A stretch of DNA of 64,000 nt, taken from Pyrofollis japonicus. Lineage in GTDB: Archaea > Thermoproteota > Thermoprotei_A > Sulfolobales > Pyrodictiaceae. The position numbers were made by a program, and so were the translations under genes. Positions 25,767-42,342 of the stretch are shown here, one piece after another; position 1 is the first letter of the stretch; each line of letters starts with the position of its first letter. The notes under the pieces were generated by a model. It was not told the origin of the DNA. It worked only from the letters and a program-made list of their open reading frames with translations, and did no database searches. Location: positions 682,001 through 746,000 of the forward strand of contig NZ_AP028634.1 of assembly GCF_033097485.1 (NCBI RefSeq), written 5' to 3'.

Positions 25767-25913
25767 CCCCCAACCCAGTGTTTTTATCCCCAAGGAACAT
25801 GCTCGTGCTCTCCCTCTTCCTCCTCGTCTCTAACCACTCGGTAACACTGATCACTGTTGAGGGTAGCAATCCTAATTGGCTCGTAGAGCCATGTTCTACT
25901 ATGGGTGCAAAGA

Positions 25914-26126
25914 GTGTCTAAAGCTGTGAGGGTGAGATACGAGAAAGGCGTGCTCAAGCCCCTGGAGCCCATTGATCTCCGGGAAGGCGAGGAGGTGATT
26001 GCAGTACTCATCCCCATCGGTGAGAAGAGGAAGAGGATTCTGAGGAAGTACCGGGGCATACTGGGCAAGGCCTCAGAGGAGGAGATAGAGGAACTACTCG
26101 CCGAAGCAGAGTGGGAACCCCTATGA
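25914..26126 (+). CDS. DUF104 antitoxin (AF2212-type), VapB-like
   Basis: About 70 residues. VSKAVRVRYEKGVLKPLEPI followed by REGEEVIAVLI is the beta-rich DNA-binding core of DUF104 antitoxins, and the acidic C-terminus (SEEEIEELLAEAEWEPL) should bind the toxin. GTG 25914 gives the family-typical N-terminus; a GTG three codons earlier is also possible. It overlaps the PIN gene by four bases (ATGA), as expected of a toxin-antitoxin pair. It lies just after the nuo cluster and is probably separately transcribed. Confidence 0.85.
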   Translation: MSKAVRVRYEKGVLKPLEPIDLREGEEVIAVLIPIGEKRKRILRKYRGILGKASEEEIEELLAEAEWEPL

Positions 26127-26581
26127 ACGGATACGTCTTCGTAGACTCCAATGTGTTTATCCAGCTCCTCTACGAGGGTGCCCGCGCTTCTGAGGCCGAG
26201 GACCTATTAGAGAAACACCCCTTGCTGGCGACCAGTATCGGCGTCGTAGACGAGGTGCTTCACTTCATTATAAGAAGGGAGGCGATGAACAAGTACGGGG
26301 TTAAGAGGGCATACGATCTAAGAAGGCTCATTAGAGACAAAGGGGTAGCGTTCGCCAAGGAGAGCCTAGCCAAGTTCTCCTCACTGCTAGAAGAATTGTA
26401 TGTAAGGGTGGTGACGGACGCCGAGACCCAGCCAAGCCAAATAATCAGCACCATGGACAAGTACAGGCTATCGCCAAGAGACGCAATCATAGCCCTAACG
26501 TGCAAGCACTACGGCATAGACACCATCCTAACCTTCGACGAAGACTTCAAGCGAGTACCCTGGCTCCGAGCAACCCCCTAA
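26123..26581 (+). CDS. PIN-domain toxin, VapC-like
   Basis: 152 residues from ATG 26123. The PIN acidic residues are seen in VFVDSNVFIQLL (first Asp), the central Glu of GVVDEVLHF, RLSPRDAIIALTCKHYG (third Asp) and TFDEDFKRV (fourth). It is a probable RNase kept in check by the overlapping DUF104 antitoxin. Coding-strand composition is strongly A/C-rich towards the 3' end, like nuoN before it. Confidence 0.88.
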   Translation: MNGYVFVDSNVFIQLLYEGARASEAEDLLEKHPLLATSIGVVDEVLHFIIRREAMNKYGVKRAYDLRRLIRDKGVAFAKESLAKFSSLLEELYVRVVTDAETQPSQIISTMDKYRLSPRDAIIALTCKHYGIDTILTFDEDFKRVPWLRATP

Positions 26582-26685: not shown

Positions 26686-27027
26686 GTGGACGAGTTGGGC
26701 GACGAGCTAATAGTACGCGTCAACACCCAGGGCTACCGGCCCAGGATCCGCGCCTGCATACGCCACGTCCCCTGGCACTGCAGGATAAAAGACAACACAA
26801 CTGTGAGCGACATATGCGTAGAATGGACAGCGGACAACAAGTCCCTAGAATACAACGCCCTCGACAACCTGGTGAGGAGCATAGCCTCATCTAAGCAGTG
26901 GAGCGCAGAAGAACTAATAGCAGAGCTCAAACAAGTCCTCGAACAAAAACTAGGCACACAGGTAACAGTAACAATGCGCTTCGAGGAGAAGAAAGACCTA
27001 GAAATAGAACTAACCCTAGGCAAGTAA
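26686..27027 (+). CDS. Small protein of unknown function, possible T-fold (QueF-like)
   Basis: A 113-residue protein from GTG 26686. The order of elements is strand, loop with CIRHVPWHC, a SDICVEW strand, a long helix pair (NALDNLVRSIASSKQW, AEELIAELKQVLEQKL) and two C-terminal strands (QVTVTMRFE, LEIEL). This resembles the tunnelling (T-) fold of QueF-like and GTP cyclohydrolase-type enzymes. I cannot identify an active-site motif with confidence, so the suggestion is tentative. It is the last G+C-rich gene before the A+T-rich island. Confidence 0.55.
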   Translation: MDELGDELIVRVNTQGYRPRIRACIRHVPWHCRIKDNTTVSDICVEWTADNKSLEYNALDNLVRSIASSKQWSAEELIAELKQVLEQKLGTQVTVTMRFEEKKDLEIELTLGK

Positions 27028-27314
27028 CAATATTAACCAACTTAATTAACCATTATAGCTATCTACAATTACGATCTCTTCTAATCAGCTCTGTGCTATC
27101 GTTAACCTTCTTTTCCCAACTAAGTTCGTTTTCTAACCTTGTAATAAGTTTCTTCAGTATAATTAGTCGGGTGTTCTTGTTCAAGATATATAGAACCTCC
27201 TTGTAAACAATATCCAAATAGCAAACAAAATTCTTCTTATATAAGGCTTTAAATGTCTTTTGAGCACAGCAAGCTTTAAGAGCCTCGCCAGAGTATGAGA
27301 GAGTTCTAATTTAT
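27028..27314. other. A+T-rich flank of the ATPase island
   Basis: The base composition falls sharply right after the preceding stop. On the minus strand one frame is open from 27310 to a TAG at 27059-27061 (about 83 codons, containing LYKKNFVCYLDIVYKEVLY), lying just after the ATPase stop. It lacks an ATG or GTG and has only an internal TTG, so it may be a decayed or frameshifted downstream gene. Nothing else is recognised. Confidence 0.35.
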
Positions 27315-29246
27315 CTAGTGCGTCGCTATGAGAAATAATTCTATAGGCGCATAAATTATGTCTACGTCATTACACTTCTCTGACCAAATATAACTAGTCT
27401 TGCTATGTCGATTAACAAGATATATGTTAAATAATAACGTCTTTATGCTTTCCTCTTCATTATCCTTAATAAAGGATGTTTGGCATTTAAGTTCATCGCA
27501 TTTCTTTGGGCTTCTTGAAATCTCTATACCATAAATAGGTCTGACCCCTTTCTTAGTAGCTTTAACTATAAGTGCATCTATTTCAAATTGATTACATTTT
27601 TCGTTTTCCTGATTTTTATCTATTTTATCGTTTTGTTCTAATCGATATGTATAGAGACCGTAGCTTGCTGGCTGTGCCCCTATAGGCTTGTCGGCTGAAG
27701 CTCGTATAGCATATAAGTTGAGCATTATATTTTGTAAAGTTATCATCTCTAGTAATGTGCCTACAATACCTCTGGTTACAAATTTATTATCTCCATCTCT
27801 TTCGCACGCTATTTCTTGTATAACTTCCTCTAAAACATCCTTAAGAATAGATGATGGATCAGTTGTACTATCCAACGGATTGTATAATAAATAGCCATAA
27901 TAAGCTGAATATAGGTATCGAGGATCACTGTAAACAAACTTATGCTTACGCGATTTAGGTGTTTGCTTCTTTTTCTTCTGTTCGTTGTCTTTCTTTTTGC
28001 CGTCAGATCTCTTTTCAACACTAGACTCTTCAATAGGTGGCCTATATGCTGTAACTTGGAACAAGATGTCAGCTTCTCTTAAATACTTAAGTACACTCTC
28101 TACAACACTTCGCGCGTTATGATGCGATAAAGGACTTAAAGCGATATCGTCACCGAGCTCTATTGCTTTTCTTTTTAAATCCTCTCCAGAGAATGTTATA
28201 TTAGCTTTTTTGCTGAATATAGATGCTGCCAAGACTTGAAAAGAGGCTTCAACGTACGGCTGATAGTTCTTATCGATGTTCTCTACTCTAATTGCATCAT
28301 TAACTATAGAATCATAGGTTCTTTTAAGTGCACTTATATATTGTTTTATATATCGTCCTATTTTATTATTGATACTTTTCTTATTTTTACAAAAATCTTT
28401 ATATTTATTTTGATTAAAGATGTCTTTAATTATTTCAAATCCAAAGATAGTGCCACCAAAGACTGCATAAAGAGCAAACAACAACCTAATGTAAGGCATG
28501 TATTTAGCCTTTTCATAAAGTTTAGTACCGAGATAGCTTAGGTGATTAAACAGTACTTGTGTATCTTCGATAATCTTACGCCTTTCAGTACCTTTAAGAG
28601 GATGTAATCTCTTAATTTTAGGACAAATCGATTTAATAATCCTTAAACCTATTTCTCCAAACCTCAGCGGATAAAGTCTCACTACCTCTAATCCTCTATT
28701 CTTAAGGCTACGTGGCAAATATGCAGTAGGGCTTGCAGCAATAACTACGGCGTTGCCTAAAAGTTTTGAATAAATAATTTTGCGGACATTTTCATAACAG
28801 TAATGAACGTTATCTATCAGAAGCAGTATTGTAAATTTGTTATCATTAATATAATAATTTGAAAATACATGTAAATATTCATTAATTTTATCTAGAGATA
28901 AATTATTATTAATTGCACAATCTAATGATATAGGTATAATATTATGTTCTTTTATAAGATTAATAATTTTAATAATATCCCTATTATCACATTTCTTATA
29001 TCTACGCTTTTCTTGTATACAGTCAATTATGCTACGATTACGCAAGAGAAGAGTTGATGCCAAGTCACTCATAACGTATGATTTACCTACCGAACGGGGG
29101 CCGGCAAGAAGAATTCCATTTAATCTTTTCCCTTTATTGATAATATCGGTGATCTTACTGAAGATCACATGTTCTACATTCATACTGAAAATTTCCCTGA
29201 ACTTGTCCAAGTCATTAAATTCTTTATTGTTTGTTAGCGTAACCAT
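27315..29246 (-). CDS. Large A+T-rich P-loop ATPase, probably acquired
   Basis: A 643-residue protein with Walker A GPRSVGKS at residues 49-56 and a Walker B ILLLIDNVHY in which Asn146 takes the place of the usual catalytic Glu. A sensor-like strand follows (VVIAASPTAYL). The rest is helical, with a Lys-rich insert (KKDNEQKKKKQTPKSRK, about 425-440) and a C-terminal domain with FEIDALIVKATKKG and GIEISRSPK. That pattern is reminiscent of the PD-(D/E)xK-like nuclease end of archaeal ATPases. Asn, Ile and Lys are abundant and A/T dominates codon third positions, unlike every neighbour. It probably arrived with a mobile element or as an accessory defence gene. Biological role unknown. Confidence 0.75.
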   Translation of the reverse strand: MVTLTNNKEFNDLDKFREIFSMNVEHVIFSKITDIINKGKRLNGILLAGPRSVGKSYVMSDLASTLLLRNRSIIDCIQEKRRYKKCDNRDIIKIINLIKEHNIIPISLDCAINNNLSLDKINEYLHVFSNYYINDNKFTILLLIDNVHYCYENVRKIIYSKLLGNAVVIAASPTAYLPRSLKNRGLEVVRLYPLRFGEIGLRIIKSICPKIKRLHPLKGTERRKIIEDTQVLFNHLSYLGTKLYEKAKYMPYIRLLFALYAVFGGTIFGFEIIKDIFNQNKYKDFCKNKKSINNKIGRYIKQYISALKRTYDSIVNDAIRVENIDKNYQPYVEASFQVLAASIFSKKANITFSGEDLKRKAIELGDDIALSPLSHHNARSVVESVLKYLREADILFQVTAYRPPIEESSVEKRSDGKKKDNEQKKKKQTPKSRKHKFVYSDPRYLYSAYYGYLLYNPLDSTTDPSSILKDVLEEVIQEIACERDGDNKFVTRGIVGTLLEMITLQNIMLNLYAIRASADKPIGAQPASYGLYTYRLEQNDKIDKNQENEKCNQFEIDALIVKATKKGVRPIYGIEISRSPKKCDELKCQTSFIKDNEEESIKTLLFNIYLVNRHSKTSYIWSEKCNDVDIIYAPIELFLIATH

Positions 29247-29420
29247 AGCTATGTAATCCTTGCTAATAAATTACACATGTAATACAATATAAACAATATC
29301 GCCAAATAGCCATATAGCCTAGATATTAAAAAGAGATCATATGCTATTATCGATTCTCGCCCCCTGCGCCAACACATTTACTAAATCTTTATTTTTGGAT
29401 GCATTTCCGTTAATTAGAGA

Positions 29421-29906
29421 ATGGGGAAATCCATGTCTGATTATTGGCTTGTTGTGGTTACTGAGGAGAACTATCACACCATAAGGTCTCACCGCGTCTA
29501 CGGGGTACCTGCCACAAGAGGAGAGACGGCAACTCGCCTCATAAAGCCCGGGGACATTATCCTGGTTTATGTCGCGAAGCGCGGCTCGAAGAGCCTCGGA
29601 GGAAGAATAGCGGCGGCCTATCGGGTCAAGAGTGAGTGGAGGAGAGAAGACACCCTTCTATGGCCCGACGAGGAGCGGGAAAACAGGGTCCTCTACCCTT
29701 ACCGAGTAGATGTGGAGCCGCTCATAGAGTGTACGGGTCCAGAGGCACCGGAGCTCAAAGAACTGGTGCGCAGCTTGTCCTTCATAGAGAAGAAGGATCG
29801 TTGGCAAGCATACCTCGTAGGAACAATAGCTAACGCCCGAAAACCGATACCCAGGGAGGACGCCGAGAAGATAATCAGGGAGCTAGAGAAGAGGTGTAAA
29901 AAGTAG
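29421..29906 (+). CDS. EVE-domain protein
   Basis: A 161-residue single-domain protein. DYWLVVVTEENYHTI at the N-terminus, GETATRLIKPGDIILVYVA and a later aromatic-rich strand region match EVE (PUA-like) domains, which hold modified bases in nucleic acids. EVE proteins frequently sit beside restriction or methylation-based defence genes. Here the methylase gene converges on it with 25 bases between them. It starts at ATG 29421, or at ATG 29433 four codons later, after a TATA-like CTTTATTTTT near 29386. Whether it senses a base modification made by the neighbouring methylase is inference. Confidence 0.8.
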   Translation: MGKSMSDYWLVVVTEENYHTIRSHRVYGVPATRGETATRLIKPGDIILVYVAKRGSKSLGGRIAAAYRVKSEWRREDTLLWPDEERENRVLYPYRVDVEPLIECTGPEAPELKELVRSLSFIEKKDRWQAYLVGTIANARKPIPREDAEKIIRELEKRCKK

Positions 29907-29931
29907 GAAGCTAATCCTTATTCTCCTATCG

Positions 29932-32900
29932 TTATTTCTTTAGCCACGTGTCTAGTGCGCCACCCTTCTCGCTAACAACTCTACAAGCCAGATTCTTCTC
30001 CGCGTCGTCTTCTGGCAGCAGCTTGCAGAGAACCTTTGCTATTCCTAGGGCCTCGTCATAGAGACCAGGATACCTCGTTCGAAGAACCTGCTTATAGGTT
30101 TCGAGGGTGCCACGCGCGGCGCCATAGTATAGTAGGTGGAGAATATCCACGCTGCTCCGGGCAATAGCTCTCTCCGGGTCGCGCTCAAGCCCACGCTCCC
30201 TTAGCAGCCTCTCGAGATCCGCGGCGCTACGAGCATCACGCGGATAGTGTAGCACGAACGCGTCCCTAGCCCTGGCGACGAGGCGAGACCGCACGAGGTC
30301 CTGGTAATCGGTTATTCCTAGCGCTATTCCGAGCAACCCCATAGACTGGCCATCAAGCCTTATGTCTCCGGCCTCGGAGAACAGTGTCCTAGCGACTAAG
30401 TAGAACCTGGCCGGAGCCGACGACACAACAGCGCCGCCAACACCGGAGAGCGCCTCGGCAACAGCGCGGCCAGCAACCCTGTAAGCAAGATCAGCCACGC
30501 CACGAGAATCAAGAACGCCCTTCGGATGGATTATTTTCTCGCAACGAGTAAGAACAGACAACGCGGCACCAAGAGCAGCAAACAACAAGTCGTAGCCAAC
30601 AACGCCGCCCTCCCGGACAATCTTCAATGCAAAGCTCCTAGCCCTCTCAAGCGCCTCAGCCTCAACAGCCGCAGCATCACAACGCCTACTATCCTCTCTC
30701 TTCCTCCAAGCAACAACAATACTAGTGTCAAGCCTTATCTTGCCACGAGCAGTAACACGGGTACCAGACTCAGTCACGAGAGGCACAGCACTAGAAACCC
30801 TAAGGCCACCAAGCTCCCAGCCAGCTCGCAGAAGAGAAGCCCAAGCATCAACACTTGTATGGTTATAATAAGTCACAATAATACCGTTCTCCCCGAGAAA
30901 GCCAGACATAGTTCTAAAAGCCTGGCCGAGCCGCTCCTCAAACCACTTAACAGCATCCTCTAAACTAGCATTGCCAAGACGGCCAAGATTCACACTAATC
31001 TCGCGACGAGCAACCTCCTCCCACTGAGTCCTACGCTCAAACCACGCACCACCAACACGGCGAAAGAAGGCATCCGCAACAAACCTCGGAACAAGCCTAC
31101 CACCCTTAACATCACTAAGAGCCCTCTTAAGCCAAACATAATAGAAATCACTAAGCTCACTATACGGAACATCATCATAATACGGCGGATCAGTAACAAT
31201 GGTACTGAATCTCTCTACACCAAGCTTACTTAAAGTAGTTGTATCGTCAAGTAGGACTTTAGTATAGCTAAGACTATTAGGAGAGGTAACAAAGATAAGA
31301 TATTTAAGGCTATTAGTCTCTATTCTCATAGACCAACTATAGCTATACATTATAGTTTTTCCCGATTTTGAAATAGATACAGGAACCTCCACAAAATTCC
31401 AGACCATAGCTATTCCTCTAAACGATAAGGCATCACGGATTTTACTTTCTGCCCACGAAGTAGGATTCCACGAAGTAACAATAGCATTATACCTTGCATG
31501 TTCAATTAATGCTATTGCTAAATACGTTGTTACTGCCTCTGCGTATCTGAACGCCTCCTTCTCACTCCATCCTTCTCTTAGCTTCATCTCTTCAGTTTTT
31601 TTGCCTGCCTTCCGTATCAGTTTAGCAAGCTTAACTAGGGCTAGAAGCTGGCGTGGATTGAAGAGCTTGTAGAATTTGTTAAAGCCCCATGTTATTATGC
31701 TGAGGTTTCCTGCTGTTCCGGATGTATACGTCCAGAGTGGTTCTGTTGGTATGTCTGGGTCTCCGCATATCTGCTTGAGTTTCTCTAGCGCTTTCCATAG
31801 TTTCTCGGTGTCTTGCTGTGTTGCTGGCTGGAAGTCTAGGTCTCCGTTGACTATCTTTGCTTTGGCTAGTAGTCGTGGCCTGGCTGGTGCGTTTCTTAGC
31901 TCGTCTAAGCTTATTTTGCCTTCTAGGTAGTCTTCTAGTAGCTTGTTCCATTGCTTTATTGCCCATTTTGGGTACCATTCTAGTCTCTTGCGTATCATTT
32001 GTGGTGCTTGTTCTTTTGTCGTGTATGTTTTCCCGGTTTCGGGGTCTATGTAGCCTAGGGGGCGGCGGTCCTGTATGCAGGTGGCGGTGTTGCTGCGTGG
32101 CGCTATGTTTGGCTCGGGTACGTTGTAGGTCTCGTTGCCTATTCTTATAGTGTTGCCGTTTATTGTTGCTCTTGTGACGTCTTTCCCCATCTTGTTTAGG
32201 TCTATGATCTCGATTTCTACTTCGCCGTTGTTGTTTACTTTTGGCTGCATGTATACTAGTCTCTGGTAGCGGTTGCCCTGTCTCGTGCGTGCTAGCCAGT
32301 AGTTGCCTATCATTGGGCTGTACTTGCCGCTGTGTGGGCACTTGATCTCCCATGTGCCTATGTAGACTGCTACGTCATCGTCGTATAGCTCTTTTATGTC
32401 GGGGTCTTCGCGCAGCCGGTCTACTATCCATTTTCCCCACCGGGCTACGTCGTATAGTAGTGCTGGTAGTTCTACTCCGCTGGGTGTTTCTCGTGCTAGG
32501 CCTTTCCTCTTGAGGGAGCCAATGTCCAGTATGTCGCTTAGCTCTTTTAGCTCGTCGTGCTTTACTGTTACGCGGTGTTTTCCGAAGAGGACTGGGTACT
32601 CGAGTACTGCTTTGAGGAACACGTAGGCTGTGGGGAGGAGCTCTACTGCTACTGCCTCTGAGACGCCTAGGCGGATTGCCTCTAGGGGTATGGAGCCGAA
32701 GCCCGCGAAGGGGTCTAGTAGCTTGGCCGACCTTATTCTCTCTATGAGTTCCCTTTTTCCTAGCTGGTTGAGGTCTGGGTTAAGGCTGTGGGGGGACTTG
32801 TCTTCTAGGAGGCGGAGGGCCTTGGCGAGGCTCCTTATGTCGGTGTTTTCGGGTAGGAGGCTCGCCGCTATGACGAAGCGTGCTCCGACGAGGGGTTTCC

Positions 32901-33177
32901 GAGTCCACCAGAAAACCATTTCCCAGTAGTCGGGGCGCCCGCCTCCGGACTTCTCGCTCAAGCTGTACTCGTTGACTATGCGGACTATGTTGGCGCGCCT
33001 AGCCCCTATTTTCTGGGCTAGGCGGCCTTGGAGAGGTATTTGCTCGGTGTAGATGCGGGGGCTCTCGATAAGCCTTGTGTCGTTATTGCTTGTACTGTTT
33101 TCTGGCAAGCTGACACCACTGGTAAAGAGTGCATTGCCTCTGGTTTTGAAGTGTTTCTGTTTGTCTGCGGAGATCAT
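29932..33177 (-). CDS. DUF1156-type adenine-specific DNA methylase
   Basis: A 1081-residue protein. The N-terminus holds the DUF1156 signature with WEMVFWWTRKPLVGARFVI (residues 85-103). The SAM-binding motif DPFAGFGSIPLEA begins at Asp155 and the catalytic DPPY lies at 663-666 in TDPPYYDDVPYSEL. A long insert between them includes KCPHSGKYS, a possible zinc-ribbon half. It likely methylates adenine-N6 in host DNA. The divergent DUF499 ATPase and the helicase share its locus. Composition changes abruptly inside the gene: the stretch 31,200-31,660 (residues about 507-660) is A+T-richer, and skew differs on either side. ATG 33177 lies very close to a TATA-like element, so a later start is possible. 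Confidence 0.85.
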   Translation of the reverse strand: MISADKQKHFKTRGNALFTSGVSLPENSTSNNDTRLIESPRIYTEQIPLQGRLAQKIGARRANIVRIVNEYSLSEKSGGGRPDYWEMVFWWTRKPLVGARFVIAASLLPENTDIRSLAKALRLLEDKSPHSLNPDLNQLGKRELIERIRSAKLLDPFAGFGSIPLEAIRLGVSEAVAVELLPTAYVFLKAVLEYPVLFGKHRVTVKHDELKELSDILDIGSLKRKGLARETPSGVELPALLYDVARWGKWIVDRLREDPDIKELYDDDVAVYIGTWEIKCPHSGKYSPMIGNYWLARTRQGNRYQRLVYMQPKVNNNGEVEIEIIDLNKMGKDVTRATINGNTIRIGNETYNVPEPNIAPRSNTATCIQDRRPLGYIDPETGKTYTTKEQAPQMIRKRLEWYPKWAIKQWNKLLEDYLEGKISLDELRNAPARPRLLAKAKIVNGDLDFQPATQQDTEKLWKALEKLKQICGDPDIPTEPLWTYTSGTAGNLSIITWGFNKFYKLFNPRQLLALVKLAKLIRKAGKKTEEMKLREGWSEKEAFRYAEAVTTYLAIALIEHARYNAIVTSWNPTSWAESKIRDALSFRGIAMVWNFVEVPVSISKSGKTIMYSYSWSMRIETNSLKYLIFVTSPNSLSYTKVLLDDTTTLSKLGVERFSTIVTDPPYYDDVPYSELSDFYYVWLKRALSDVKGGRLVPRFVADAFFRRVGGAWFERRTQWEEVARREISVNLGRLGNASLEDAVKWFEERLGQAFRTMSGFLGENGIIVTYYNHTSVDAWASLLRAGWELGGLRVSSAVPLVTESGTRVTARGKIRLDTSIVVAWRKREDSRRCDAAAVEAEALERARSFALKIVREGGVVGYDLLFAALGAALSVLTRCEKIIHPKGVLDSRGVADLAYRVAGRAVAEALSGVGGAVVSSAPARFYLVARTLFSEAGDIRLDGQSMGLLGIALGITDYQDLVRSRLVARARDAFVLHYPRDARSAADLERLLRERGLERDPERAIARSSVDILHLLYYGAARGTLETYKQVLRTRYPGLYDEALGIAKVLCKLLPEDDAEKNLACRVVSEKGGALDTWLKK

Positions 33178-33228
33178 CTTTATTATCCTTATACGTGGCC
33201 CTTGTTGCCAGGGGAGGGATTACTCTTT
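33175..33228. promoter_or_regulatory. Divergent promoter region of the methylase and DUF499 genes
   Basis: CTTTATTATCCTTAT at 33178-33192 is A+T-rich on both strands and can supply TATA-like boxes in each direction. GGGGAGGGA at 33211-33219 precedes the DUF499 ATG (33229) by nine bases. Confidence 0.4.
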
Positions 33229-36200
33229 ATGCCTATATTTGAGCACGCTGTGCTCTGGAGCGATGTTCTCGACAAGAGGCTTGACGAGCACCAGGCCCCG
33301 GAGCTAGACTACTTGTTCCGCAGGGGAGAAATCTACCGTATCTACAGTGATCCACGAGAATTCTTTAGCCGCACACTCGTAACCGATAACATGCTCTCCG
33401 TGCTAGAAGGTGTCGTCGACGCGCTGAGCGGTACGGGTAACAAGGTCTTCCTCCTCTACAGCTTCTTCGGCGGAGGTAAGACGCATACACTGATAACGAT
33501 TTACCACGCCCTCCGCGACCCCGATGCCCTCCTAGAGTCGGTCAAGGAGTCCGCCGAGACGTATAGCGGTGACCGCGTACAGTTCGTTGAGAGGGGGAGA
33601 AGGCTCGTCGAGCGCCTACGGGGGCTTGGAGACATAAGTGTCGTGGTTATTAGCGGGAAGTATGAGAGGCTCTTCCCCGATCCTTCCCACCCTGTAGAGG
33701 TAAACGGTGTCCGCGTCAAAACACTATGGGGGTACTTGGCGGCGCTCCTTGGCCGCTATAATGAGATAAGGATAGATGATGAGCATGTGCGGGCGCCGGC
33801 TATTGATAGGCTTGAGAAAATACTTGCGGGCAAGCGTGTCCTTGTGCTGGCGGATGAGGTTGCAGACAGGCTCGCCAGCCTCCTTGAAAGCAGCAGCGAA
33901 GTAGACCGCAACTATGCTAACCAGGTTGTCTCCTTCTTCGACAACTTGTTCAGCGCTGCTAGGAGCGTGGACACGGCAATAGTGTTTACCCTGCCAGGCG
34001 AGGAGCGCGGAGGCACGCTTGTGCTTGAGAGTAGGTATCAGGGAAGGACAGTTGAGCAGGCTCTCCAAAAAATAACGCGCGCCGCTATGCGTGTAGGCTC
34101 TGCGCCGCTTGAGCCCGTCAGCTCCGCGGAGTTCTGGAGGATTATCAAGCGCCGACTATTTAGGAAAGTGGAAGACGACTACGCCAAGAGGCTGTCCCTT
34201 GAGCTGGAGAACGTCTATCGCTCCGAGAAAGACGTGTTCGGCGACGATACCCGCTACGCCGAGGAACTCCGCTACATGTATCCTCTACACCCTGGCTTCA
34301 TAGAGGCGCTGAGGACTATCATTGAGAGGAACGATAAGCTCCAGAAAACGAGAGACGCTATAAGGATAGCGAGGATTATTGCAAGGCAGCTACACTCAAG
34401 GTGGGAGAAGAAGGAACTGCGAGAAGACATGGTTATGGCGTGGCACATTGACCCTACTGTGTCAGAGCTCTCAATCATACTGCAGGGGTTCGATGCCTAC
34501 AAAATGGTTGTTGATGCAGACCTCAAGAACAACATGAAGAAAATACGGAAGACTCTGGGCGACAAGGCGCCTCTAGCCAAGATGGCGGCCACCGCCGTGT
34601 TCGTGCTCACCTATACCTTCCAAGCCCCGAAGCCGCTACCACAGTTCCCGACGAGGGACAAGATAGCCCAGCTGGTCTACGACCCAGCACTGTTCGCCGA
34701 GAATCACTGGATGCCGAGCGATATACCGGAGGCTGTTGACACTCTGAGGCGTAATCTCTACTACTTGTGGACCGATGGGGAGAGGTTTTGGTTCTGGAAC
34801 GTTCCGAACGTCATACAGATGATAGAGGAGAGGGCGAAGCAGATAGCGAGGATGGAGGGGCCTAGGCTCGTAGAGGAGGTCGTGGCTAGCGACGACTACT
34901 TGCGCGGCCTGGTCTCGAGACAGTTCAGGGACCGGAGGCTTGGCGGCAGGATCAAGATGAGGCTCTTCGAGCACTACGACACATTTGTGACTGCTAAGCC
35001 GGAGGATGTGCCGGATGATGAGAGGTATAAGCTCGTCGTCGCCCTTCACCCACCGGAGCAAGGGTTTGAGAAGATAGTGACGCATAGCGTGAAGGGCGGG
35101 AGGTTGGCAGAGAGAGTCTACCGCAACACCGTAGTTGTGCTCGCTCCGCGGGACCCAGCCGAGCTAGAGAACGCTATAATCGATACATATGCAAAGGTGC
35201 GGGCGGCAAACGTGGTGGAGAGAGAGCTGGGCTCAATAATCCAAGGCCTCCAAGGAGTCCCGTCATCTATGAGATCCGTTATAAGAAGCATCCAGCTGTC
35301 ACTTATACGTGATGTAAGGGAGTTCAACGTCTCGGAACTCTACAACATATTGTTCAACGGCTTCGACACAATATACTATCCCGGAGAAGCTGGTGTCAGG
35401 AAGGTTGACGCGTCAAGGCTGGGCGTGACCGCTGTCTCGCTTGCCCAGAAGGCCGAGAGAGCGCTGGAATCCCTTGGGAAGGCCTTGTTCGAGATGAGCT
35501 TCGAGTATCTCGTCGAGAAGCTTGAGGAGACCGCTAATTCCCTCAGTACTCCGCGAAGCGTCCGCGAAGTAGTATCAATGTTCAGAATAGACCCCTCGCT
35601 GCCCATGGCTACGCGTAGAGCCGTGATAAACGCTCTGCTAGAGGGGCATCGGGGCGGCAGGCTGCTCGTCGAGCGGGTTACGCGCCAGGGTAAGCGAATT
35701 TACTATGCTGGAATCCTGCAGGGGGACTGTGACTCCGGTGAACCACTCCTGGTTAGCGAGCTGGGCGACGACGATACGGTTGTGCTCGCGGAGCCGGGGC
35801 GGGCGACAGAGGAGACGGCAAAGAAGCTGCTAGACTACCTGGCCAGCCTGGAGGGCGTTGAGCAGCGCCCTGATGGGAGCGTGCTCGTTCGCAGCGTGAA
35901 GGTCTCCCTCTACAACCAGGTGATCAGCCTCAGAGAGTTCGTAAGCGAGGTAGGCCCTAGCCCCGACGTAGTGTTTGAGGCGAAGTACTGCATAACCGAG
36001 GCGGCGAGGAGGCCGGGTATAAGGCTAATCCTCTCCACCGAGAAGATCTCCATCGACGAGGGCGAGGAGTACACAGTCAAGGCTTCCGTCGAGTCCATCG
36101 GTGAGCTTGACCCGGGCAGGGTAAGGCTAAGCATAGACAAGCTTGACGGCCTAGAAATAGAAGTCTCAAAAACAGAGCTACGGGTAGGCGAGGAGGCAGA

Positions 36201-36678
36201 GATAAGGATCAGGGCCCTCCGGCAAGGCAGTTACACGGTAGCCATTACGGCTATACCGGAGCGCGGAGACGAAGACAGGGCCAGTATAGAGGTGACGGTG
36301 AAGGGGCGTGAAGAGGAGGTTGAGTGCACGAGGCTCGACGAGGCGCCTGGCATCGTTACTGGGCTAAGGATTAGCGGGGAATGGGGCAACGCCTCAATCA
36401 TCGTGGAGAATATTGCGGAGGCAGTAGGCCAGGCTGTCGCAACTGGCACCCTCAGTGCCGGAGGAGTGTTACTAAAGATCGAGGAGCCCCGCGAACTCGG
36501 CATAGTGTACATGCTTGCACAGAACATCGTGAACATAGTAGGGCAGGGCAGCGGTGAGCCCCCAAGGATAGAACTTGACATATCTTTCGGCTCAAACTAC
36601 CCGGACAGGGCACTGCTTAAGCGGCTTATCTCCCCTATCCCGGCGGGCGTCGTATGCAAGGCGAGGATTAGGAGGTAA
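33229..36678 (+). CDS. DUF499 ATPase of a helicase-methylase-ATPase defence-type locus
   Basis: 1149 residues from ATG 33229. Walker A is SFFGGGKTHT at residues 78-87, the form typical of DUF499 proteins, and VLVLADEVAD is a probable Walker B. A strand-rich region near residues 930-1030 (SIDEGEEYTVKASVE and following) looks like an Ig-like domain. DUF499 ATPases are related to the BrxC/PglY component of BREX and occur beside DUF1156 methylases. The gene is divergent from the methylase and followed by the small gene 7 bases later and then the helicase, so these three are an operon. Role in target recognition or signalling is inferred from the family. Confidence 0.88.
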   Translation: MPIFEHAVLWSDVLDKRLDEHQAPELDYLFRRGEIYRIYSDPREFFSRTLVTDNMLSVLEGVVDALSGTGNKVFLLYSFFGGGKTHTLITIYHALRDPDALLESVKESAETYSGDRVQFVERGRRLVERLRGLGDISVVVISGKYERLFPDPSHPVEVNGVRVKTLWGYLAALLGRYNEIRIDDEHVRAPAIDRLEKILAGKRVLVLADEVADRLASLLESSSEVDRNYANQVVSFFDNLFSAARSVDTAIVFTLPGEERGGTLVLESRYQGRTVEQALQKITRAAMRVGSAPLEPVSSAEFWRIIKRRLFRKVEDDYAKRLSLELENVYRSEKDVFGDDTRYAEELRYMYPLHPGFIEALRTIIERNDKLQKTRDAIRIARIIARQLHSRWEKKELREDMVMAWHIDPTVSELSIILQGFDAYKMVVDADLKNNMKKIRKTLGDKAPLAKMAATAVFVLTYTFQAPKPLPQFPTRDKIAQLVYDPALFAENHWMPSDIPEAVDTLRRNLYYLWTDGERFWFWNVPNVIQMIEERAKQIARMEGPRLVEEVVASDDYLRGLVSRQFRDRRLGGRIKMRLFEHYDTFVTAKPEDVPDDERYKLVVALHPPEQGFEKIVTHSVKGGRLAERVYRNTVVVLAPRDPAELENAIIDTYAKVRAANVVERELGSIIQGLQGVPSSMRSVIRSIQLSLIRDVREFNVSELYNILFNGFDTIYYPGEAGVRKVDASRLGVTAVSLAQKAERALESLGKALFEMSFEYLVEKLEETANSLSTPRSVREVVSMFRIDPSLPMATRRAVINALLEGHRGGRLLVERVTRQGKRIYYAGILQGDCDSGEPLLVSELGDDDTVVLAEPGRATEETAKKLLDYLASLEGVEQRPDGSVLVRSVKVSLYNQVISLREFVSEVGPSPDVVFEAKYCITEAARRPGIRLILSTEKISIDEGEEYTVKASVESIGELDPGRVRLSIDKLDGLEIEVSKTELRVGEEAEIRIRALRQGSYTVAITAIPERGDEDRASIEVTVKGREEEVECTRLDEAPGIVTGLRISGEWGNASIIVENIAEAVGQAVATGTLSAGGVLLKIEEPRELGIVYMLAQNIVNIVGQGSGEPPRIELDISFGSNYPDRALLKRLISPIPAGVVCKARIRR

Positions 36679-36685
36679 TGAGGGG

Positions 36686-37090
36686 ATGGAGCACGAGCCA
36701 GTGAAGGAGTACATTATCGAGCTTAGGAGGAGGCGTGGGAAACAAGTACTATTCTTCGTTGAGGGTGGCAGCATTGTTGCCGCTGCAACCCTGGCGTGGC
36801 CGCAGACGCTTACATGGCTCCGCGAACTCGGGTTCGAAGAGACTGGGCCCAACAAGTGGAAGACTGGAAGCATGACGGCTTTTCTCGAAGCAATCATACT
36901 CTATGGTGTTGCGCAGACGCTGCGGAGCAGTGGCAGACTCTCCCAGCTGCGCCGAGTAGCCGACGAGCTGGAGCTCTTAGAGCTGAGATTCTGGGCCAAC
37001 AAGTTCTCCCAGGGATACCGGGGCAGCGGTAGGCGGGGCATGTATAGGCCTGCCCGGAGCTTCAAGATACTATACCGCTTGGCAAGGTGA
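36686..37090 (+). CDS. Small unrecognised protein between DUF499 ATPase and helicase
   Basis: A 134-residue basic protein from ATG 36686. It starts with a strand-rich segment (QVLFFVEGGSIVAAATLAW), then TWLRELGFEETGPNKWKTGS, a helix pair ending LSQLRRVADELELLELRFW, and an Arg/Gly-rich tail (GYRGSGRRGMYRPARS). The tail could bind nucleic acid. It is locked into the operon: 7 bases after the ATPase stop, and overlapping the helicase start by four bases (GTGA). I cannot place it in a family. The position suggests a dedicated accessory component of the system. Confidence 0.75.
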   Translation: MEHEPVKEYIIELRRRRGKQVLFFVEGGSIVAAATLAWPQTLTWLRELGFEETGPNKWKTGSMTAFLEAIILYGVAQTLRSSGRLSQLRRVADELELLELRFWANKFSQGYRGSGRRGMYRPARSFKILYRLAR

Positions 37091-40000
37091 AATCGCTCTT
37101 GCTGAACGAGGCAGGGGCGGGCCTCCTCTACTTGGCGCTCTCGAAGCTTCTGAGCTGGCACCCTATCTACGTGTTCTCAACCCCTGCTACGCGGCCATAT
37201 GTGCCGTACTCTCACCAAGTCGTAGTCCTTCGAGATAACGCCTCTAGACCGGTGGTACGGGTACTGATTGGCGACGAGGTTGGGCTCGGCAAAACGGCGC
37301 AAGCGGCTCTCACGCTGAGACTACTCGAGGCTAGGAGGAAAGCAGCCACGAGGGAAGGGCGCGACGAGTTTAGGGCACTGATCCTGGTCCCCCGGATACT
37401 CGTTGAGCAATGGTTCGACGAACTGGTTTCAAGGGCGTCTATTAGCCATGCTAGAATCTACATGCTCCGCTCGGGAGAAGATCTTGACTGGGTGGAGCAG
37501 AAGGGTTGGCCGCCGGGCTACTATATTGGCAGTATCCAGCTTCTCAGGCTGAGAAACTATGCCGATAGGCTGGTTAATGTAGACTGGGACGTAGTAGTCG
37601 TTGACGAGGTGCATAATGTCGGGGTTGGACCCAGCTTCCAGTCGCCAAACAAGTCCTACCAGCTAGTATTCAGGCTCACGAGGCCTCCTCATAGATCCGT
37701 GATCTTGTTGTCGGCTACGCCGCACCGGGGGAAGTCGAGAGACTACATAGCTAGGCTAATGCTCCTCGTACCGGAGATAGCACTGGAGGATGTAAGGCAG
37801 CTCGTAAGCATACTCGACAACAACGAGTTCTACAAGAAGACGCACGGAACCCTGGTCTATAGGAGGACTAAGGAGCTGGTAAACGAGCTTGAAGAAAGAG
37901 AGGTGTTTCGGCCCGCGCACTTCTATGCGGTGATCATCAACGTGTCCAGGGAGGAGCAGCAATTCGAGAAAATACTGAGAGGCTTCGCTGAGAGGAAGGT
38001 GAGCGAATGGGGCTCCGAGATATGGGAGCGAGGAAACCCTAAGGGCTTGATCATAGCCTTGCTCTTGAAGAGGGCTAGTAGCAGCGTCTACGCGGCGAGA
38101 AAGACCCTGGCAACACTGATAGAGAATTTCAACAAGAGGCTGGGGGAAGGCGCCGATGTTGAGTCATTGCGGCAAATTCTCTCAATAGACTTCTCCGAGT
38201 TGAGTGAGGAGCCAGAGGAGCTGCTTAGAAAGGCCCTCGGCTCCGCGGCCGGCTTGTTCACGAGGAAGGATATAGAGGAGCTTGCGAGCCTTGTTAGCCT
38301 CGCCGCAAAGATAGAGGAGGACGGAGAGTCCAAGCTCAAAGCCCTCGTAGACATTATTGAGAAACATGTCTCAGAGGGCCGCAGGGTAGTGGTCTTCACA
38401 GAGTACCGTGATACCCTCGAATACTTGTATGAGCGTCTAAAAGGCCTGAGTGTCGGCGGACGAGAGCTAAGGATAAGGTGTATTAGTGGCGCTGCTTATG
38501 GGCCATGTAGTCGCCAAAACATAGAGATCATTAAGAGCGAGCTGGAGGCCGGAGACCTGGACGTCGTCCTTGCAACAGATGTTGCGTCCGAGGGGCTGAA
38601 CTTACAGCATGCAAACGTGCTGATAAACTACGATGTCCCGTGGAGCCCTGTCAAGCTCGAGCAGAGAATCGGAAGAATATGGAGGCTTGGGCAGCGCAAC
38701 GAGGTGGAAATATATAGCCTCTTCAGATCCGCGTCAATAGACTATGTTCTAGTGGAGAAGCTGTACTCGAAGATCCTCGCCATACATGAGGCCACCGGTA
38801 CATCAAGGCCAATAATCGGCGCCAAGGCTGAGCTCTATGCTGAGGGAGAATTCTATAGCATTGATAAGCTGTATCGGGGAGGAGCACCTGGAAGCTCCGA
38901 TGCTGTGGCAGACGCGCTAGAAGAGGAGGGAGAAGTAGGCATAGCGAGGGCTATTCTCGAAAACAACCTGGACGCGATAGCCAAGAAGATATTGGAGAGG
39001 ATAAACAAGCTAAGGCAGGAGATCCAGGAGAAGAATATCTATCCATCGTATATCGAGCCGCTAACGCTGAAAAAGCGGCTAGAGATGTGCCTAGGGTCGC
39101 CAGAGCCTCCTATGAGGATAGTAGAGAAGCAAGCAAAAATACTGCAACGCCTCCTTGGCAGGGACGAGCCGAAGGACAGCTATGATGCAGTAAAGAGCCT
39201 GCGCGGGGCACTAGCATGGCTGCTTGCCTCGAAGAAGGGCAGCACAGTCAAGCATTATTATCGTAGCCCAGCCCTCGAGCCGGGCACTCGGCTAGCAATC
39301 ATCCCTGTTGCAGTGAAGTCTCCCAACGGTGCCCTACTCTACGAAGAACTCGTCGGAATAATGTACTCTAGTAAGGGGCGCAGCTCTTACACAATCCTAG
39401 TGGGCCCCATGCTCTTAGACAAGCTTGTAGAGATAGCCGAGAAGGGAATAGAGTACGCGGATAAAGCAAGGATTAGTCCTTTGGAGAAAAACATACTACT
39501 CCTAAGAGCGCAAAACCATGTACAACAATGCCTAAGCATATCGTTTAGGAGGGATAATCTCGAAGCACTATGGAAACTAATAGGAGAGAAAACAGGGAAA
39601 GAAACCAGCATCGGGACAAGGATCAGGGTTGAGCCACTAGAGTCCGAGATTGTTCTTATTGAGCACGGCCCCGTAGGTGGTGCACCTAGAGAACCCCGTA
39701 AAGTAAGTGAGGCCAGTGAGGAGCGCCAGGGGGCTTTGAAAGAGGATATTGCAGCGCTGGACGAGCTAGAGAGAAGACAGCAAATAGAGAGAAAAGCTAT
39801 ACCTGTCGTAATGAGGTACGAGCTTGACCACGGCAGGGTGCCCAGAGACGTACACGAGGAAAGAAGCTACGACATAGAGTCCTATGATCCACAGACCGGA
39901 GAGGTGCTACGCTACATAGAGGTTAAGTCGCACTGCGGCGACAAAGCCATAGTAGAGCTCACCGAGAAAGAATATGAGTTTGCAAAAGCACATCGAGACA

Positions 40001-40167
40001 AGTATTGGCTATACATTGTTCTAAACATGTGCGGCGATAAGCCAAAGATCATAACTATACACGACCCTCTCTCAAAACTAGGCTTCAAGCGGTTAAGGAA
40101 ACGAATAGTAGAGGAGAGAGTAGAGACACGGTACATCGCCGAAGTAACAGAAATAGAAACCACGTAG
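37087..40167 (+). CDS. SNF2/SF2 helicase with C-terminal DUF3883 domain
   Basis: A 1026-residue protein. Motif I is GDEVGLGKT at 62-70, motif II DEVH at 172-175, motif III SATPHRG, and motif VI QRIGRIWRLGQ, all intact. The C-terminal 150 residues hold a DUF3883 domain (RSYDIESYDPQTGEVLRYIE, then VKSHCGDK), a PD-(D/E)xK-like fold seen in defence helicases. Length and arrangement match helicases paired with DUF1156 methylases and DUF499 ATPases. The GTG start overlaps the previous stop. A translocase or nuclease effector acting on unmodified DNA is a reasonable inference. Confidence 0.9.
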   Translation: MKSLLLNEAGAGLLYLALSKLLSWHPIYVFSTPATRPYVPYSHQVVVLRDNASRPVVRVLIGDEVGLGKTAQAALTLRLLEARRKAATREGRDEFRALILVPRILVEQWFDELVSRASISHARIYMLRSGEDLDWVEQKGWPPGYYIGSIQLLRLRNYADRLVNVDWDVVVVDEVHNVGVGPSFQSPNKSYQLVFRLTRPPHRSVILLSATPHRGKSRDYIARLMLLVPEIALEDVRQLVSILDNNEFYKKTHGTLVYRRTKELVNELEEREVFRPAHFYAVIINVSREEQQFEKILRGFAERKVSEWGSEIWERGNPKGLIIALLLKRASSSVYAARKTLATLIENFNKRLGEGADVESLRQILSIDFSELSEEPEELLRKALGSAAGLFTRKDIEELASLVSLAAKIEEDGESKLKALVDIIEKHVSEGRRVVVFTEYRDTLEYLYERLKGLSVGGRELRIRCISGAAYGPCSRQNIEIIKSELEAGDLDVVLATDVASEGLNLQHANVLINYDVPWSPVKLEQRIGRIWRLGQRNEVEIYSLFRSASIDYVLVEKLYSKILAIHEATGTSRPIIGAKAELYAEGEFYSIDKLYRGGAPGSSDAVADALEEEGEVGIARAILENNLDAIAKKILERINKLRQEIQEKNIYPSYIEPLTLKKRLEMCLGSPEPPMRIVEKQAKILQRLLGRDEPKDSYDAVKSLRGALAWLLASKKGSTVKHYYRSPALEPGTRLAIIPVAVKSPNGALLYEELVGIMYSSKGRSSYTILVGPMLLDKLVEIAEKGIEYADKARISPLEKNILLLRAQNHVQQCLSISFRRDNLEALWKLIGEKTGKETSIGTRIRVEPLESEIVLIEHGPVGGAPREPRKVSEASEERQGALKEDIAALDELERRQQIERKAIPVVMRYELDHGRVPRDVHEERSYDIESYDPQTGEVLRYIEVKSHCGDKAIVELTEKEYEFAKAHRDKYWLYIVLNMCGDKPKIITIHDPLSKLGFKRLRKRIVEERVETRYIAEVTEIETT

Positions 40168-40171
40168 ATCA

Positions 40172-40393
40172 CTAGTGCTGTAACTGCTTGGCCCGAGCCA
40201 CGGGCTTTGAGCCAGTACCGCCATTGGTAATAGGTACCACTTTTTCAATCTCAACAGAGATATAGTCTCTATTTTCCTCAAAGACGCCGTAAGCATAGTA
40301 TTCTCTACCATTAAACTTTAGCCTTAGACGAACAGTTCTCACAACACCCCTTCTTAGACGGGCCTCTTGGCTCAACCCCTCTCCTCTCCACAA
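40172..40393 (-). CDS. Small hypothetical protein
   Basis: A 73-residue frame on the minus strand converging on the helicase gene (4 bases apart). From about residue 17 it reads as a compact beta protein (VRTVRLRLKFNGREYYAYGV, then DYISVEIEKVVPIT) with a basic tail. The first 16 residues look less protein-like, so a GTG at codon 17 or 18 may be the true start. An overlapping frame at 40311-40538 is less convincing. No family is recognised. Confidence 0.45.
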   Translation of the reverse strand: MWRGEGLSQEARLRRGVVRTVRLRLKFNGREYYAYGVFEENRDYISVEIEKVVPITNGGTGSKPVARAKQLQH

Positions 40394-40718
40394 CTACTAC
40401 TGGAGTACCATATCCAAGGTAAGCTGATACACTCAATAATACCAGAAAAGCTAATCCAGTATCATGGTCAATACCGTTGATACTATGCAAGGTGATACAT
40501 AAGCGGCTAGAATACCATGAGGGTATTATCAGCGTCATAGCTTAACCCTAGAAAGAAGCCTCAATACTGTTATTCCCTCTCCGATGTGTCACCGATGCAA
40601 CTACTAATAATAGCTAAGCTAAACTTCTATGACAAAGAGCTATTGTTAGCACATCTAAATATTCCTTTAATGTATTTCCTTACAGTAGGTTTTTAGGGAT
40701 ATTGCAGCTCTCCTTGAC
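40394..40718. other. Gap after the defence region, nothing recognised
   Basis: About 325 bases, somewhat A+T-rich. TATA-like CTTTAATG near 40671 may serve the next gene. No tRNA, repeat or convincing frame was found; a minus-strand frame at 40311-40538 is weak. Confidence 0.4.
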
Positions 40719-41492
40719 TTGACTAGGTTCTCTATGCTGCTAGGTGTATATGGTATGGGTTCTTCTCGTAAGAGTAGCTGTGTTAGTGGGGTTGTTTGTG
40801 AGCACTTGGCCTGGATTGCTGGCGTACTTGGAGCTAGTGTCGATGATGTTGCTTCGCGTCTCCCTGTTCCCGTGCCCGGTATGAGTGTTGAGGACTATGG
40901 TGCTTCTCTCCAGGCGTCTCTCGTGCTTGTTGATGCCTTTGAGTATCTGTTCTTCCGCGGGTTTAGGAGGTTGCTGCGAGTAATGGTTCCGGAGGACGTG
41001 TTTTGCCTCGTGGAGGGCGAGGAGGACACTGTAGTGAGTAGCTGTAGGGATGCGCGTGGCTTCTCGATAAGCTTTGCAGGCAGCGGTGAGCATGCTCCCA
41101 GTAGTCTCGTGTTGGAGGCGCAGACGTCTGCCGAGGACCCGCATCACGTAGGCATAAGGGTTTATGCAAGTATTGGCCCCGGCGGCGAGGCTGAATGGGA
41201 GGAGCTTGGGCCAGAGAGGGCTGAGAGGATTGTTAGGCGGGTCATATCGTATGCTAAGAGGACGAGGCTGTACATGGGCCTCGAAGAAGTGCTGGCGGAA
41301 ACTGAGGGAGTGTACGAGCTCAGCCTGGAGCCTGGCGACGGGGTTGGGGAAGGCGTGCCGGAGGCGGCTCTCGAGGCGTTTGTCGCCGGGATGCCGGGCT
41401 TCGTGCTGCCCTTCGACCTGAACCCCGTACTGGATCTATCCGAGTACATCTCGAGGAGGCTGAGCAGGGAGCTGGAGAAGATGCGGGAATGA
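40719..41492 (+). CDS. Hypothetical protein
   Basis: A 257-residue acidic, soluble protein I do not recognise. The start is a TTG at 40719 or, five codons on, an ATG at 40734. The first 100 residues are mostly helical with cysteines at 21, 27 and 97 (SSCVSGVVC). The middle has a strand-rich part (SLVLEAQT, GIRVYASIGPG), and the C-terminus is helical. Coding-strand composition is G/T-rich at the 5' end and shifts towards A/C. It precedes a VapBC pair. Confidence 0.6.
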   Translation: MTRFSMLLGVYGMGSSRKSSCVSGVVCEHLAWIAGVLGASVDDVASRLPVPVPGMSVEDYGASLQASLVLVDAFEYLFFRGFRRLLRVMVPEDVFCLVEGEEDTVVSSCRDARGFSISFAGSGEHAPSSLVLEAQTSAEDPHHVGIRVYASIGPGGEAEWEELGPERAERIVRRVISYAKRTRLYMGLEEVLAETEGVYELSLEPGDGVGEGVPEAALEAFVAGMPGFVLPFDLNPVLDLSEYISRRLSRELEKMRE

Positions 41493-41841: not shown

Positions 41842-42342
41842 TTGTCGCTGGTCTACGTTGATACGAGTGTTGTCGTGGCTGCTCTTGATCCCTTGGATCC
41901 CAGGAGGGATGGGGCTAGGAGGGCTCTTCAGCGCCCCGTGGGCAAGATTGTTTCTGAGCTTGTCTCGGCTGAGTTGGCGAGTGTTCTCTCACGGCAGCGC
42001 GGCGTACTGGAGGAGGTGAGGCGCAGGCTCGGCGTAGACGAGTCCGTGGCCTTTGTCGCGGTCCTCCTCTACATATTGAAGAGGTTCGGGCTGAGATACG
42101 TCCCCGTAAAGAAGTTCTCGAGGACGCTGCTCGGCAGGTTCTACGGCCCCATAGCGTACTCCATATTGTTGTCTGAGAAGCTCAGGCTTAGAACCCTGGA
42201 CCTACTCCACCTAGCCTACATAAAGGCGCTAAGAGAGCAAGGCATACCCGTAGACACGCTCCTCACAGCCGACACAGATTTCAAGGAAAATGAGGAACGG
42301 ATTCGCAATGTTCTAGGCATAACCGTTGAACTAATAAAATAA
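41842..42342 (+). CDS. PIN-domain toxin, VapC-like
   Basis: A 166-residue PIN protein starting at TTG 41842. Acidic residues are in VYVDTSVVVAAL, SAELASVLSR, LDLLHLAYIKALREQG and TADTDFKE, matching the four-acid RNase centre. It is slightly longer than usual VapC because of an internal segment around VPVKKFSRTLLGR. It abuts the ribbon-helix-helix antitoxin with no gap. Confidence 0.88.
   Translation: MSLVYVDTSVVVAALDPLDPRRDGARRALQRPVGKIVSELVSAELASVLSRQRGVLEEVRRRLGVDESVAFVAVLLYILKRFGLRYVPVKKFSRTLLGRFYGPIAYSILLSEKLRLRTLDLLHLAYIKALREQGIPVDTLLTADTDFKENEERIRNVLGITVELIK

Follow-up and report, generated by a model that had tools for sequence, protein, structure and literature searches.

A short A+T-rich segment within the 64-kb window (the whole stretch of DNA analysed here, itself part of a 2.0-Mb single-contig genome whose gene content and relatives mark it as archaeal) is well supported as a recent acquisition, and the single intact gene that it carries, 643 codons in length, would by profile encode a very diverged member of the common, almost unstudied AAA_14 family of ATPases. 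The explanation that we prefer, and to which we give an even chance, is that this acquired and diverged ATPase acts as an ATP-binding, nucleic-acid-contacting switch with probably little catalysis of its own. The gene stands at the border of a defence locus, and the features on which the argument rests are collected in the table below.

Features of the A+T-rich segment and of the adjoining defence locus (positions in the window)
Feature	Position	Strand	Basis and remarks
A+T-rich segment	26987..29484	.	maximum-likelihood edges, GC 0.329 vs 0.549
83-codon stop-to-stop frame, possible remnant	27059..27310	-	frame reading; no ATG/GTG start
643-aa AAA_14 ATPase gene	27315..29246	-	intact ORF, Pfam; no sequence orthologue found
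C-terminal region, residues 430-643, PD-(D/E)XK-like topology	27318..27959	-	predicted; DUF4143-like not by sequence alone
AAA_14 domain, residues 30-199	28650..29159	-	Pfam 45-199, profile comparison 30-199
Walker B LLLIDN, residues 141-146	28809..28826	-	alignment; Asn146 in place of catalytic Glu
Walker A GPRSVGKS, residues 49-56, intact	29079..29102	-	motif reading
EVE-domain gene	29421-29906		profile searches
DUF1156 methylase	29932-33177	-	profile searches
DUF499 ATPase	33028-36678		profile searches
171-codon frame	36575-37090		
Helicase with NOV_C	37087-40167		profile searches

The sharp change of composition over about 2.4 kb that the original prediction had described is borne out by segmentation, which separates the two GC levels with a log-likelihood ratio of 111. 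The 1-kb stretches poorest in GC (0.30, against a mean of 0.548 and a standard deviation of 0.060, the comparison being made within the window) fall inside the segment, which is bounded by an orphan gene, orf113 (26686-27027), on one side and by the EVE-domain gene on the other. Two further GC dips, to about 0.40, occur at 31000-31750, inside the DUF1156 gene, and at 40000-40750, after the helicase gene. Codon use is Asn/Ile/Lys-rich with A/T-ending codons, as had also been claimed: GC at the three codon positions of the 643-codon gene is 0.40, 0.30 and 0.27, with a third-position value of 0.52-0.78 in neighbouring genes; asparagine, isoleucine and lysine together make up 28% of the protein (4-19% in the neighbours); AAT and AAC are used 33 and 12 times (15 and 66 in the neighbours), and TTA accounts for 22 of 63 leucine codons, as compared with 7 of 570. 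The break also takes in the non-coding DNA on both sides of the gene, and so belongs to the DNA itself and not to codon choice alone.

No orthologue of the ATPase was found in 58 relatives, among them four from the same genus and 15 from the same family, nor in 214 genomes of the order or 398 of the phylum, and about 540 genomes of the phylum held nothing related in sequence to the gene as a whole. Weak matches in the phylum (E 0.001-0.01) were, where inspected, unrelated proteins or stop-containing frames at chance level. Neither phages nor plasmids matched the protein, pattern scans of 85,000 species and of IMG/VR, which distant relatives can escape, yielded no relative, and the DNA of the island, searched in the 58 relatives, returned only itself and one 32-bp match. 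The protein is by these comparisons an orphan at the pairwise sequence level, and an orthologue of like composition at the same place, which would have counted against recent acquisition, was present in none of the 58 relatives. Nor does the family explain the base composition: at 34 loci of related AAA_14 proteins, a few of which overlap as fetches of one and the same gene and so lower the independent number somewhat, the GC of the gene minus that of its flanks averages 0.007 (standard deviation 0.037, lowest value -0.054), while the same difference here is -0.21. Because related genes match their own surroundings, the A+T-richness is not intrinsic to the family. These observations support well the earlier suggestion of recently acquired DNA.

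The surroundings are themselves variable: in two genomes of the same genus the neighbourhood of nuoN has quite another arrangement and is without the whole block. From the nuoN-like to the pyrE-like gene (25766-58698) the distance is about 33 kb here and about 10 kb, with other content, in the same-genus genome L059, in which an amidotransferase-like gene lies inverted between the two. The 113-codon orf113 had no match in the 58 relatives and none above chance in Pfam or NCBIfam; owing to its absence from all relatives there is no exact empty site, and the arrival times of the ATPase gene and of its neighbours are inseparable.

The original prediction of a 643-residue ATPase with an Asp-Asn Walker B motif proved accurate. 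The protein scores 31.1 bits with Pfam AAA_14 (PF13173), above the curated cut-off of 27, and GPRSVGKS conforms to the Walker A pattern G-P-R-x-x-G-K-[ST]. In Walker B, Asp145 is followed by Asn146, at a position occupied by glutamate in 30 of 30 aligned relatives; an Asp-Glu pair is usual in AAA_14, yet is no requirement of the Pfam profile cut-off. By profile the protein is thus a member of AAA_14, but an altered one, and to call it a protein of unknown type, as had been done, was too strong. PADLOC and PHROGs gave no match to it, and NCBIfam none near any cut-off; the ATPase_2, DUF234 and DUF499 profiles of Pfam were likewise without a match.

Closer placement relied on AAA_14 proteins collected from the genomes of relatives, 30 of which (crenarchaeal, mostly AAA_14-DUF4143) were aligned with the ATPase. 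Of 17 positions without variation among these 30 proteins it retains 15, spread from Walker A to P634 and L639 in the C-terminal part, the two losses being E146 (Asn) and G171 (Ala). Residue 577, in the E-x-K motif, is serine; among the other 30, lysine occurs here in 21, threonine in 6 and serine in 3, so that the loss of this lysine is not unique, whereas that of the Walker B glutamate is. Profile comparison aligned residues 30-199, through LYPLRFGE, with seven AAA_14-DUF4143 proteins (79.9%, E 1.4e-5). Pfam, run on seven relatives of this type, recognises AAA_14 in all of them and DUF4143 in six; the family profile A1 stayed short of E 1e-5 in the source genome. AAA_14-DUF4143 ATPases (COG1373-like) are common in Sulfolobales-type genomes, and the present protein resembles them in its AAA_14 match above cut-off, its invariant residues, collinear with theirs between Walker A and the P...FL motif at the C-terminus, and a similar predicted fold. 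It differs in length (643 residues against 412-577), in having D-N and AAS where they have a Walker B D-E and, after the next strand, TGS, and in carrying serine in place of their E-x-K lysine. The DUF4143 profile (PF13635) finds no match in the protein up to E 1, and for this reason it is not filed as DUF4143. The archaeal ATPase_2-DUF234 proteins (COG1672-like, of which L025 in the source genome is an example) share the same general layout of AAA+, winged-helix and nuclease-like parts, but profile comparison with them gave a probability of only 1.1%.

For the C-terminal part, a nuclease-like character had been claimed, and this is plausible. An AlphaFold2 model built on the 31-protein alignment (mean pLDDT 71, pTM 0.79) predicts a helix-strand-strand-strand-helix-strand core at residues 489-609, of PD-(D/E)XK-like topology, that carries E500, E555-I-D557 and E575-I-S577, with serine in the usual place of lysine. 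The alignment given as input presupposes homology, so that the model is support and not proof; a single-sequence model (34 and 0.24) was discarded as of no use. The solved folds nearest to the model are the clamp loader, ORC/Cdc6, DnaA and STAND-type proteins, all at low TM-scores, and fold searches of the PDB and of viral models returned generic AAA+ matches only. The C-terminus agrees with the family at 12 of 18 conserved columns, a number reached by one of 60 shuffles (6.7 +/- 1.8), and profile comparison of the C-terminal half sets EIDAL on EVDFV and IEIS on IEVK with a P of 0.06. In an HMM search the fragment 430-643 ranks first of 359 sequences, with an E-value of 0.22. These matches are not significant alone; the collinear residues and the predicted topology are only suggestive of homology to the AAA_14-DUF4143 family and of a PD-(D/E)XK-like fold. 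At about residues 404-436 lies a Lys-rich stretch of low complexity.

The 83-codon open frame described after the ATPase gene is present from stop to stop. A frame of at least this length arose in 31 of 3000 Markov simulations of the 287-bp stretch, and this, with the missing ATG or GTG start, makes it weak support for a gene. At 27184 an in-frame TTG is preceded by AAGGAGGT at a spacing of 10 nt, and an ORF initiated there (27059-27184, minus strand) would give a basic peptide of 41 codons. The 83-codon frame matched nothing in Pfam or among plasmids, and nothing meaningful in PHROGs.

The position beside defence genes was described correctly. The genes at 29421-40167 correspond to a BREX-related (Hma-like), DUF499-centred defence system, a tripartite arrangement described as BREX-related or 'Hma', and DUF499 loci have been noted together with EVE genes (PMC12839542). 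Relatives of the DUF1156 gene are patchy, occurring in 18 of the 58 genomes searched (source genome included). On one side of the locus is an AF2212-like/PIN toxin-antitoxin-like pair (25905-26581), and on its far side a second gene that is PIN-like by sequence (41842-42342). That the ATPase is an accessory component of this system is improbable. The gene directly adjoins the EVE-DUF1156-DUF499-helicase genes, and a related EVE gene stands next to DUF1156 in one of 11 other fetched DUF1156/DUF499/helicase loci, which, with the published DUF499-EVE association, would favour such a role; but none of these 11 loci holds a relative of the ATPase, the composition of its gene is sharply unlike that of the system's genes, and the protein lacks a DUF499 match. 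Absence from the other loci marks it as a chromosomal neighbour of the system, not a part of it.

In the preferred reading of an acquired switch-like ATPase, a single gene with its flanking DNA would have come from an A+T-rich source and would now border on a variable defence locus. Its product would comprise an AAA+ ATP-binding domain, a helical or winged-helix middle and a C-terminal PD-(D/E)XK-like domain. Replacement of the Walker B glutamate in AAA+ proteins usually stops hydrolysis and leaves ATP binding in place, and PD-(D/E)XK enzymes need their lysine for cutting. As both residues are replaced here, binding probably outweighs hydrolysis and cutting in this protein; we infer this loss of catalysis from the residues. 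Most likely it would bind both ATP and nucleic acid and serve as a slow switch or a scaffold, in the manner of ORC/Cdc6- and STAND-type AAA+ proteins. It would then detect or tag nucleic acid, or hinder an active ATPase related to it, and would not itself restrict DNA. Any part that it might have in defence or counter-defence would likewise be an inference.

The main rival to a switch is a passenger in decay, an acquired AAA_14 gene that drifts without function and has lost its catalytic residues first; the 83-codon frame would be what is left of a second gene. Changes in both catalytic motifs, the Lys-rich low-complexity stretch, the start-less frame downstream and the lack of relatives all fit this explanation. 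We consider it unlikely all the same, since 643 codons remain open in DNA of 33% GC, where a frame long unselected would hold stops, and since the family-invariant residues that are kept include Walker A, E500 and D557. An origin as the cargo of an integrated virus or plasmid, or as what remains of one, perhaps with a function in counter-defence, would suit a lone A+T-rich gene with flanks of its own in a region variable within the genus. It is quite unlikely, as the ends of the segment show neither terminal repeats, target duplication nor tRNA, no integrase or recombinase was recognised among the large ORFs read (part of them profile-searched), and the phage, plasmid, PHROGs and IMG/VR searches were negative. 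The flanks had been proposed as a place to look for an integrase or attachment sites, and the result leaves the suggestion of a mobile-element protein neither shown nor excluded; the same holds for that of a defence protein, given the missing PADLOC match and the absence from the Hma loci. A native gene in which local mutation bias or relaxed selection raised the A+T content, without any transfer, is very improbable: no donor sequence for the segment was found, as this explanation would have it, but the sharp edges extend into non-coding DNA, the gene is missing from all genomes of the genus and family that were searched, and its GC offset is far from that of related genes.

The gene is of a known family type (AAA_14) in an unusual variant, and its product is probably a borrowed, switch-like protein and not a new kind of system. 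That it is the founding member of a group of mobile AAA_14 proteins with altered catalysis, which act by binding (as an ATP-locked sensor or dominant inhibitor) and are brought into defence loci so as to modulate defence, is an improbable extension. A literature search recognised by title no functional study of the AAA_14-DUF4143 family, whose members occur often in these archaea and have hardly been studied; DUF4143 is named in a single paper of the literature searched. In other respects a foreign gene in such a variable region is nothing out of the ordinary, but a natural variant in which both the glutamate of Walker B and the lysine of the nuclease motif are replaced would allow it to be asked whether the family acts through hydrolysis and cleavage or through binding gated by ATP.
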